Assembly: GCA_015055725.1 (NCBI GenBank)
Contig: SVHO01000014.1
Span: 1-34,172, forward strand
DNA: 34,172 nucleotides
Direction: 5' to 3'
Source of the DNA: Clostridiales bacterium
GTDB lineage: Bacteria > Bacillota > Clostridia > Christensenellales > Borkfalkiaceae
Part shown: positions 30,466 through 32,539 of the stretch, in pieces
Layout: each line of letters opens with the position of its first letter
Position numbering within the stretch: position 1 is the stretch's first letter
Made by a program: the position numbers and the translations under genes
Notes under the pieces: model-generated
Told to the model about the DNA's origin: nothing
Databases searched by the model: none
What the model saw: the letters and a program-made list of their open reading frames with translations, nothing else

Positions 30466-30762
30466 TTATTTGCTGGATTTACGAACCTTAGTTTTAGCGG
30501 GCGAAAGTTTGGTGGGCTTTGGTAAAACACCTTGGTTAACAAGGATATTTTTAACGGTATCGGTGGGTTGAACACCTTTAGCAAGCCAAGCTTTTGCCTT
30601 GTCTGCATCGATAACGATTTCTGCAGGGTTTGCGGTGGGGTTATAGTGACCAACTTTGTCAATATACGCTCCATCACGTGCGTTTCTCGAATCGGTGATA
30701 ACGATACGATAGAAAGGTGATTTTTTGTCGCCCATTCTGGTTAATCTCATTTTTACTGCCAT
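30466..30762 (-). CDS. rpsP: Small ribosomal subunit protein bS16
   Basis: 98 residues. The start AVKMRLTRMGDKKSPFYRIVITDSRNARDG is diagnostic of S16. The C-terminus is Lys-rich (SPAKTKVRKSSK) as in other clostridia. AAAGGAG precedes the ATG at good spacing. The upstream 60 bp are AT-rich and then meet a tandem repeat array that separates this gene from ffh, a gap of 463 bp in an otherwise tight block. No convincing promoter could be assigned in the unique part, so the array may supply one. Confidence 0.97.
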   Translation of the reverse strand: MAVKMRLTRMGDKKSPFYRIVITDSRNARDGAYIDKVGHYNPTANPAEIVIDADKAKAWLAKGVQPTDTVKNILVNQGVLPKPTKLSPAKTKVRKSSK

Positions 30763-30823
30763 TGTTCTTTTCTCCTTTAATGGTATATATAAATTTTATT
30801 TTTTTCTTATTTAGTTTTGCTTC

Positions 30824-31219
30824 AAACGACGCATAACGCCGTTTATTTACTTTAATTTTAATTGTGTAGAAACAAGTTAGGCTAGGCTCGCGACGCGCTT
30901 TGGGTGAGATAAACCTTTTTGGTTATCGAAGTCAAAGCGCAAAGCAGAAACGACGCATAACACAGTTTATTTACTTTAATTTTAATTGTGTAGAAACAAG
31001 TTAGGCTAGGCTCGCGACGCGCTTTGGGTGAGATAAACCTTTTTTGGTTATCGAAGTCAAAGCGCAAAGCAGAAACGACGCATAACGCTGTTTATTTACT
31101 TTAATTTTAATTGTGTAGAAACAAGTTAGGCTAGGCTCGCGACGCGCTTTGGGTGAGATAAACCTTTTTGGTTATCGAAGTCAAAGCGCAAAGCAGAAAC
31201 GACGCATAACGCCGTTTAT
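30824..31219. repeat. Three-copy 124-bp tandem repeat array with a fourth partial copy
   Basis: Full units run 30827-30950, 30951-31075 and 31076-31199 (124, 125 and 124 bp), and a 20-bp start of a fourth unit ends the array. The units are almost identical: they differ at a few bases near the unit start (ATAACGCCG, ATAACACAG, ATAACGCTG) and in one extra T in copy 2. The unit lengths are not multiples of three and no conserved frame is seen, so the array is not coding. A 23-bp boundary segment (first 30824-30846, last 31197-31219) is identical at both ends and itself forms an imperfect dyad (AAACGACG / CGCCGTTT). The array fills most of the gap between ffh and rpsP. Confidence 0.95.
30895..30940. 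other. Conserved hairpin within repeat unit 1 (also at 31019-31065 and 31144-31189)
   Basis: GCGCTTTG pairs with CAAAGCGC (8 bp). A symmetric internal loop GGTGA / GAAGT follows, which would allow tandem G-A pairs. An inner stem GATAAACC / GGTTATC with one bulged base closes a T5 loop. All three units keep it, and the only change is loop length in copy 2. There is no T tract outside the stem, so it is not a terminator. It may be a structured RNA or a DNA hairpin. Confidence 0.7.
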
Positions 31220-31225
31220 ACGCAA

Positions 31226-32539
31226 TTAAAAACGGAACATCTTATTATTCTTCATTTGCTTCATCATAAGTTTGGTTTGTTCAAATTGTTTTAGCAAACG
31301 ATTTACGTCTTGAACGGTTGTACCACTGCCCTTTGCAATTCTCGTTTTTCTTGAAGAGTTTATAACAGAGGGGTTTTCACGTTCATACATGGTCATTGAC
31401 TGAATTATCGCTTTGTTGATGATGATTTTCTTTTCGTCAATATCTTCTTCACGGATTTTGAACTTTCCACCCATGCCTGGTAGCATTGCCAAAACGTCTT
31501 TTAATCCGCCCATTTTATTCATAGTTTCAAACTGAGAAAGATAATCGTCTAAGGTAAAAGAGTTTTCCCTAAACTTCTTCTCCATTTTTTTGGCTTGCTC
31601 TTCGGTGACCGCTTCTTGCGCCTTTTCGATTAAAGACAAAACGTCACCCATACCGAGAATACGGTTTGCCATACGGTCGGGGTAAAACTGCTCTAAGTCG
31701 CCAAGTTTTTCGCCAACCGAACAAAACTTAATGGGTTTTCCCGTGACGGCTTTCATAGAAAGGGTTGCACCACCACGCGTGTCGCCGTCAAGTTTAGTTA
31801 GAACTAAACCCGTCACTTCTAAACGCTTATTAAAGGTGTCTGCAACTTCAACTGCAACTTGCCCCGTCATAGAGTCAACGACTAAAAGAATTTCGTTAGG
31901 GTTAACTTGCGCTTTGATGTCCTCAAGTTCTTTCATCAACTGTTCGTCAATTTGCAAGCGACCTGCAGTATCTATAATAACCGTGTCAAACGCATAAGAT
32001 TTTGCGTAAGCAACGCCTTCTTTGGCTATTTTAACGGGATTGCCTTGCCCCTTTTCAAAAACGGTGCACCCTGCCTTTTCGCCAACCACTTTGAGTTGGT
32101 TTATGGCTGCGGGACGATAAACGTCACACGCAACGAGAAGTGGCTTTCTGCCTTGTTTTTTAAGCATTAAAGCAAGTTTTCCAACGAGCGTGGTTTTACC
32201 TGCACCTTGAAGCCCTGCCATCATAATAACCGTGGGCGGATTAGATGCAAAATTCAACTTGCTAGCCGATGAACCCATAAGTTCAATAAGCTCTTCGTTA
32301 ACGATTTTTATGACTTGTTGGGTAGGATTAAGATTTTTAATAATCTCTTGCCCAACCGCGCGTTCCGAAACTTTTGCAACGAACTCTTTAACGACTGAAA
32401 TATTAACGTCTGCTTCTAAAAGCGCGATACGCACTTCACGCATAGCCGTTTTGATTTCAAGTTCGGTAAGTCTACCATGCTTGGTCAGTTTGCTGAATAT
32501 ATGATTAAGTTTTTCGGAAAGACCGGAAAATAACGCCAT
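31226..32539 (-). CDS. ffh: Signal recognition particle protein Ffh
   Basis: 437 residues. The N domain (residues 1-95) is followed by the GTPase G domain with GLQGAGKTT (109-117), DVYRPAA, DTAGRL and TKLDGD. A Met-rich M domain ends MMKQMKNNKMFRF and binds signal peptides and the SRP RNA. It works with FtsY, encoded at the window edge, to deliver membrane proteins. The ATG overlaps the ylxM stop codon (TAATG). The C-terminus is followed after seven bases by the end of the repeat array, and no ordinary terminator is seen. Confidence 0.98.
   Translation of the reverse strand: MALFSGLSEKLNHIFSKLTKHGRLTELEIKTAMREVRIALLEADVNISVVKEFVAKVSERAVGQEIIKNLNPTQQVIKIVNEELIELMGSSASKLNFASNPPTVIMMAGLQGAGKTTLVGKLALMLKKQGRKPLLVACDVYRPAAINQLKVVGEKAGCTVFEKGQGNPVKIAKEGVAYAKSYAFDTVIIDTAGRLQIDEQLMKELEDIKAQVNPNEILLVVDSMTGQVAVEVADTFNKRLEVTGLVLTKLDGDTRGGATLSMKAVTGKPIKFCSVGEKLGDLEQFYPDRMANRILGMGDVLSLIEKAQEAVTEEQAKKMEKKFRENSFTLDDYLSQFETMNKMGGLKDVLAMLPGMGGKFKIREEDIDEKKIIINKAIIQSMTMYERENPSVINSSRKTRIAKGSGTTVQDVNRLLKQFEQTKLMMKQMKNNKMFRF

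Follow-up and report, generated by a model that had tools for sequence, protein, structure and literature searches.

A tandem array between ffh and rpsP belongs to a family of dispersed palindromic elements that carry an inverted copy of a gene end

The window (the whole stretch of DNA analysed, 34,172 nt) contains one tandem array, at 30824-31219, which is the sole row that TRF returned for it (period 124, 3.2 copies, 97% matches), the middle unit being one base longer than the period. The array is flanked by ffh and rpsP, both on the minus strand and both named by NCBIfam, in agreement with the original prediction of a near-identical, non-coding tandem repeat of a 124-bp unit between these two genes. 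The longest open reading frame overlapping it (30763-31225) encodes 61 aa, and a coding repeat was rejected as no sizeable ORF runs across the array. An array of promoters or intrinsic terminators was likewise rejected, there being no promoter-like site in the array region and a single terminator-like site, at 30716-30732, which is outside the array. The features are listed here with scores from R1, a covariance model built from 29 chosen units (most of the 34 extracted), units 1 and 2 of the window among them.

30466..30762, minus strand: rpsP, the gene downstream of the array (TIGR00002, 110 bits, cut-off 45.3)
30824..30854, minus strand: trailing partial copy, consisting of the inner 5' arm and the next dyad only
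30855..30983, minus strand: unit 3, a tandem copy with the 3' arm as in unit 1 and a non-matching 5' arm (R1, 119.1 bits)
30979..31108, minus strand: unit 2, a tandem copy with the 3' arm as in unit 1 and a non-matching 5' arm (R1, 116.1 bits)
31104..31232, minus strand: unit 1, the sole complete element of the array, a long imperfect hairpin with matching outer arms (R1, 145.8 bits, model positions 1-129 of 129)
31104..31122, minus strand: 3' outer arm of unit 1, GTTTCTACACAATTAAAAT, which repeats the end of ffh as its inverted complement and bears the fixed T.C mismatch
31125..31131, minus strand: 3' side of the P1b box of unit 1, GCCTAAC, partner of 31204-31210, with a T.C mismatch (covarying helix, letters checked)
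31144..31189, minus strand: P3 hairpin (46 nt), with a stem, an ACTTC/TCACC internal loop, an upper stem with one bulge and a five-base loop
31204..31210, minus strand: 5' side of the P1b box of unit 1, GTTATGC (covarying helix 2, letters checked)
31214..31232, minus strand: 5' outer arm of unit 1, TTTTTAATTGCGTATAAAC, which holds the ffh stop codon at 31226-31228 (arm scan, letters)
31226..32539, minus strand: ffh, the gene upstream of the array, whose 3' end is the source of the 5' arm (TIGR00959, 614.7 bits, cut-off 473.2)

In the minus-strand reading, every unit starts with an arm whose last letters are TATAAAC or AAATAAAC and continues through the dyad and the 46-nt hairpin to GCCTAAC and GTTTCTA. 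The hairpin is present in every copy as originally described, and in the plus-strand reading consists of a GCGCTTTG/CAAAGCGC stem, an internal loop, an inner stem and a T5 or T6 loop. The 23-bp dyad, said to be identical at every unit boundary and at both ends, proved less uniform: the first and last agree over 23 bp, one internal dyad departs from these at 2 positions and the other at 1, and the dyad is the 5' part of each unit, with no independent end repeat. Three units are indeed present, but they are not three equal copies, as on the minus strand only the one adjoining ffh is complete, with an outer stem in which the end of ffh, including its stop codon, pairs with a stretch beyond the 46-nt hairpin. 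An arm scan that used no core sequence also recovered this unit (16 paired positions of 18 in the arms, which lie 91 nt apart), and its fold z scores are -4.95 as RNA and -2.65 as DNA on the minus strand, and -6.19 and -4.54 on the plus strand. The 3' arm of unit 1 recurs in units 2 and 3, where the 5' arm is unmatched, as expected of in-place tandem duplicates, which fits the recent amplification originally suggested for the array. A trailing 5' fragment after a unit or array was also observed at two other loci, with an internal end point close to that of the window's array in L038 and further on in L024.

Searches of the same genome and its relatives, which the original prediction had proposed, revealed dispersed copies in both. 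The source genome (1.48 Mb, 56 contigs) holds further copies on contigs C49 and C3, and a DNA search matched 27 of 61 genomes, with 26 of the matched genomes in the set of 37 from the same genus. The R1 model matched 29 of 44 genomes at the level of the genus, with up to 42 matches in one genome, and 55 of 297 genomes in 24 of 125 genera at the level of the order, where the matches were more diverged. Across the phylum (E up to 1e-6), seven genomes besides the source were matched among 398, all seven weakly (45-51 bits, with rough E-values), and by eye these matches have the same arm and box type with GC-rich tips. GC-rich weak relatives from other families of the phylum (L301-L307 and L309, for example TTCGCATGGCTGCGTTGC...CGCCTTGCCCTGCTCGCT) suggest by their sequence that the family may reach beyond the order. 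A pattern scan for the core of subfamily 1 over 84,980 named species, with one genome per species, returned 45 stretches; every one comes under the title of a Clostridia, Clostridiales or Firmicutes metagenome bin, and 25 bear sheep-colon or goat-cecum names. A second subfamily, with a tip of the GTACG...GTACGC type, was observed at L175, L177 and L185 and on contigs C4 and C15 of genome G003, where it has arms and boxes in common with the window's type and is found at the same gene ends.

The original prediction had also named a match to a known repeat family as an outcome that would count against it, and none emerged from the searches made of Rfam, phages and plasmids. Rfam gave no match above its gathering score at any element in the nine loci or stretches examined; in the window it gave only sub-threshold matches, to porB RNA at 30805-30864 (24.4 bits against 35.1, E 0.3) and to SprC within ffh (24.9 bits against 100). 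Its sole match above gathering was a T-box leader (RF00230, 93.4 bits against 93) beside an element copy on the minus strand of L024, at 1719-1961. No match to the element was found in phages or plasmids, and pattern scans of viral sequences returned 0 matches and then 3 stretches resembling chance matches. The literature searched, which had few subscription papers within it and preprints outside it, yielded no description of such an element.

On the gene strand, a complete copy is a single imperfect hairpin of about 126 nt, built of an outer stem of 18 bp, a box of 7 bp, an internal loop and a tip that varies. The 18 pairs of the outer stem include a fixed T.C mismatch; the box, P1b, often has a second T.C mismatch and is followed by a large internal loop with conserved letters; and the tip stem, P3, has an ACTTC/TCACC-type loop in subfamily 1 and GTAC-type stems in subfamily 2. 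In complete elements 86-96 nt separate the 18-nt arms, of which only the innermost part, TATNNNC/GNNNCTA, is common to the copies, the rest of the outer arm being site-specific. Covariance analysis, another proposed check, showed the stems to covary as Watson-Crick pairs: among the 29 chosen units 30 of 39 pairs changed on both sides, with 184 doubly changed cells against a shuffle mean of 60.6, and pairing in the alignment fell from 89.1% to 28-48% when it was slid by 1-3 columns. A kissing-loop form with two small hairpins, also tried, was paired at 90.1% with a covariation of 0.388 (nested form: 89.1% and 0.413) and was rejected; since it uses mostly the pairs of the nested form, the simpler single nested hairpin was kept. 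Scoring of the outer stem in 100 copies whose arms could be placed by script, drawn from 121 distinct full-length copies, gave 82-97% Watson-Crick pairs at 12 of positions 0-15, the exceptions being positions 3, 7, 9 and 10 (7, 50, 72 and 79%). Pairing ends abruptly after 17 positions, with 61% at position 16 and 17% at position 17, and the fixed T.C mismatch is kept in 88 of the 100 copies.

The outer 5' arm is the end of the host gene itself, and the 3' arm is the inverted complement of that arm. In 59 of the 62 copies scored for it, the stop codon begins 4-21 nt before the inner arm base, that is, inside or touching the arm; scoring required an upstream ORF of at least 85 codons with its stop no more than 60 nt away, and the other 38 of the 100 copies include downstream array units, copies behind terminators and copies near contig ends. 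The upstream gene is co-oriented with the element in 73 of 79 cases. A scan of two whole contigs by arms and spacing gave 23 elements, of which 15 have a detected co-oriented stop no more than 24 nt away and 8 do not. Hosts include Era, MnmE, DnaA and GroEL, named by NCBIfam, and, at KTISGKIQRNKL, an acyl-CoA synthetase-like protein (447 bits to MbcS, below cut-off). At queA, whose product was also named by NCBIfam, the arm consists of the last codons and the stop, and the 3' arm tracks the codons of each species. Between L157 and L164, with cores that look alike by eye, the 3' arm mirrors a change of codon from tta to ata. Across five same-gene pairs with cores at least 75% alike, 11 of 17 arm differences were compensated and 6 were one-sided; compensated differences would also arise from continuing selection on pairing.

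Single sites add detail to this association. At site D, behind a gene of the triose-phosphate isomerase family, the host protein ends ERQGK in the two loci with the element (L005 and L250) and ERNK or ETHK in three empty relatives, and acquisition of the element seems to be linked to an altered C-terminus. The era gene ends TTATAA within the arm where the element is present (L004 and L237) and ends otherwise in five empty loci (L267, L252, L246, L240 and L255), so the element may supply the stop codon. At six loci (L006, L007, L257 and L274-L276) the copies follow the T-run of a terminator-like hairpin instead of a stop codon, and the preference may thus be for the ends of transcribed units generally.

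Such placement would also be seen if the hairpin were an RNA element of the 3' UTR, co-transcribed with the upstream gene and lying over the stop codon, which senses the terminating ribosome or protects or cleaves the mRNA, as REPs near stops do in E. coli. An RNA role is the main rival of a DNA-element reading, and we consider it rather unlikely. Besides the sense orientation behind genes and the stop codon in or touching the outer stem, it draws on the copies behind leader terminators (sites E and F), on the conservation of the internal loops, and on the report that REPs no more than 15 nt from a stop codon stall ribosomes (PMC12306157). As there is no obvious DNA-level mark of a stop codon, gene-end targeting itself points to RNA or to selection.

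The pairing statistics argue against that role. Within P1b and P3, G.T pairs are as rare as A.C pairs (23 and 26 of 2275, in an alignment fitted to the model), whereas tRNA stems at the loci in hand have 7-10% G.T (9 of 125 and 17 of 174 pairs), a small control of 6 and 8 tRNAs, possibly overlapping, in which the zero A.C count is probably built in by a finder that seems to take standard pairs only. The outer stem taken alone does not show this parity, as A.C exceeds G.T there (82 to 26, mostly at a few positions), i.e., as wobble on the antisense strand. It is also the antisense strand, not the transcript, that folds better: it is the more stable strand as DNA in 98 of 100, 21 of 21 and 8 of 8 copies (127 of 129), and as RNA in 96 of 100, 18 of 21 and 7 of 8 copies (121 of 129), in keeping with the fixed T.C mismatches, which read A.G on that strand.

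Orientation along contigs bears on the same question. On the 16 contigs with at least two loci at least 1 kb apart, among the matches listed (150 places), 46 of 47 loci lie on the majority strand of their contig; the simulated P of this outcome, were elements simply to follow genes, is 0.0003, 0.007 or 0.048 for 79, 85 or 90% co-directional genes, the 79% having been measured on one contig (G003:C15). The lone exception stands behind DnaA, past the GC-skew sign change of its contig. In the scan by arms and spacing, matches without the family core were discarded by eye (1 of 16 on G003:C15 and 2 of 10 on G003:C4). This left G003:C15 with 15 elements, every one on the minus strand, and G003:C4 with 8, six minus and two plus, on opposite sides of the skew switch. 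All 23 elements on the two contigs run one way relative to GC skew though 21% of the ORFs on the larger contig run opposite, which counts against an RNA that merely follows its gene. If skew marks replication, the better-folding strand is the leading-strand template and the gene strand the lagging-strand template. Gene-sense and replication orientation are largely confounded, with 211 of 266 ORFs on one strand of G003:C15. The repeated small RNA of the original prediction is weakened, short of exclusion, by the scarce G.T pairs and by this uniform orientation.

Occupancy of orthologous gene ends changes quickly between species, a further point against an RNA role. Among 25 readable members of the genus, the end of ffh carries an element in 5, from at least two subfamilies, and is followed in the other 20 by a plain, element-free gap of 17-100 bp to rpsP (30 loci were taken from 41 genomes with a match, and 5 were unreadable), which shows that this operon usually lacks the array. 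The end of queA is filled at 5 of 16 readable loci, with 14 of 30 loci unreadable. The queA locus of the source genome itself (L160, contig C21) has a decayed 5' part, TATAAACTTCGTTATGCTTCC..., at the stop codon, which points to an earlier occupation. Eight more gene ends or leader terminators were judged by eye: 17 of 44 loci in relatives are filled directly, often with a different core, one more is filled slightly further on, and the remainder are empty; at sites E and F the elements stand behind the terminators of leaders. The host genes ffh, queA, era, mnmE, dnaA and groEL are among those present with and without the element in sister species. Empty sites are too diverged for junctions to be placed to the base, and hence for a direct target duplication to be read. 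The pattern is one of repeated gain and loss at preferred sites, or of an exchange of cores there. Similar outer arms round very different cores (sites A and D) could, from their sequence, reflect core exchange at an old site and not new insertion.

We propose, with moderate confidence, that the array belongs to a family of short, dispersed DNA elements of about 126 bp, non-autonomous and active as a folded single strand, which have been acquired repeatedly at gene 3' ends, in gene sense and along the direction of replication. Of the three options originally offered (a repeated small RNA, an array of protein-binding sites or a non-autonomous mobile element), the last is the best supported, by the dispersed copies and by gene ends refilled by different subfamilies. 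A scheme for such an element might run as follows. (i) With GC skew and dnaA taken as marking the direction of replication, the antisense (bottom) strand would be the working form, folding when the DNA is single-stranded. (ii) A trans-acting recombinase or transposase would recognise the two mismatch-bearing boxes, as IntI does attC. (iii) The inverted copy would arise on joining to the gene end, for example if that end served for fold-back synthesis. (iv) Ordinary tandem duplication would then have enlarged the ffh array, and purifying selection would leave copies at stop codons and terminators. The preference for stop codons could possibly also be linked to transcription or mRNA ends.

No acting enzyme emerged from searches for reverse transcriptases, Y1 transposases and tyrosine recombinases in 44 genomes, nor an autonomous version from a search of one contig for a long form. 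A retroelement was rejected, as reverse transcriptase (PF00078) occurs in 5 of the 44 genomes and is absent from G000, G003, G022, G036 and G010, of which G022 and G010 are incomplete drafts. A relative of IS200/IS605 was rejected with PF01797 in 5 of the 44, present in copy-rich G003 and absent from G000, G022, G036 and G010. A tyrosine recombinase partner was also rejected: such enzymes occur in 32 of the 44 genomes, zero-copy ones included, and none was found in G010 and G020, which are copy-rich but incomplete. A long autonomous version was sought on G003:C15 at spacings up to 3.5 kb and rejected, with 202 matches above 130 nt against 202 in the reversed sequence; the same scan gave 20 matches against 3 at 70-110 nt.

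Replication might also have made the arms with no dedicated enzyme, by template switching (quasipalindrome formation and correction) that keeps copying one arm from the other. This we hold to be improbable. It would account for the Watson-Crick arms, for the mirrored codon changes (queA of L157 and L164, and the 11 compensated differences against 6 one-sided) and for an orientation linked to replication, but by itself it explains neither the dispersal nor the fixed arm length, and the correction it invokes should erase a T.C mismatch that survives in 88 of 100 copies. A classical MITE moved by a DDE transposase, with the outer arms as ordinary terminal inverted repeats, would be short, non-coding and dispersed, with AT-rich ends and inverted terminal sequences, as these elements are; we regard it as very improbable, given outer arms that vary by site and match the host gene, and given the orientation bias. 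That the array is an assembly artefact of a metagenome bin is scarcely credible even for a 56-contig draft, since the element occurs in separate assemblies of many species, sometimes in tandem.

For the DNA-element reading we prefer, the closest comparison is with integrons. An attC site stands behind each cassette gene in sense orientation, and its R boxes follow a full heptamer consensus that extends beyond GTT/AAC. Our best reading is that the elements may work like attC sites while falling outside attC membership. The likeness lies in an imperfect hairpin that has a pair of short boxes, unpaired stretches and a tip that varies, in a structure conserved more than its sequence, in a position behind a gene in sense orientation and in a bottom strand that is the folding strand (here in 98 of 100, 21 of 21 and 8 of 8 copies with DNA parameters). 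The published R-box consensus is GTT/AAC, and the attC bottom strand has been placed on the leading-strand template in chromosomal integrons (PMC2727003, PMC11023631), which would be its place here too if skew marks replication. Unlike in attC, there is no invariant AAC/GTT, as the inner positions of the outer stem vary and covary (AAAC/GTTT, ATGC/GCAT, TTGC/GCAA); the outer stem extends into the gene end; and the elements stand behind fixed housekeeping genes and not in cassette arrays, with CALIN clusters included in the comparison. A true attC site was rejected on these boxes and on the lack of mobile cassettes. The tyrosine recombinases that were typed, one each from G000, G003 and G022 (many genomes hold more), score 63-65 bits to the integron-integrase model TIGR02249, with a cut-off of 265, and have XerS as their best type (186-188 bits, cut-off 267), so that none reaches the integron-integrase cut-off.

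REP and BIME elements, whose end motif is GTAG/CGTC, are also dispersed palindromic elements between genes, some of them near stop codons. They differ from the present family, which has elements of about 126 nt with several boxes and host-derived arms and has the Y1 (RAYT) transposase family PF01797 in only 5 of 44 genomes, copy-rich G003 included. REPs span 20-40 bp (PMC3733652), and only 446 of 4,072 predicted REPs in E. coli lie no more than 15 nt from a stop codon (PMC12306157). RUP, ERIC, RPE and YPAL are closer in size, at about 100-170 bp, and are dispersed and non-autonomous, several of them forming hairpins. Element-encoded terminal repeats and direct target duplications are described for most of them, and for YPAL targets in or adjoining dyad symmetry (PMC2229807); here, by contrast, the outer arms repeat the gene end in inverted form.

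The family, a kind of dispersed palindromic element with an inverted copy of a gene end, is a larger finding than the array itself. Tentatively, as a possibility to which we give less weight than to the DNA-element reading, the elements might be an undescribed class of single-strand-hairpin DNA elements, possibly phylum-wide, that are appended to gene 3' ends by a reaction writing an inverted copy of about 17 nt of the gene end. If our reading is right, a DNA element that turns over fast sits at many gene ends in gut Clostridia and follows a target rule made up of stop codon, sense orientation and replication direction; it is then also a warning that a conserved hairpin after a stop codon is not necessarily a regulator acting as RNA. 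We know of no described transposon that leaves an inverted copy of its target. The family would then provide a concrete system for how recombination sites get attached to genes, and a reaction of this kind, if true, would be a candidate natural route by which an attC-like site could come to stand behind an ordinary gene, the unexplained first step in the making of integron cassettes.
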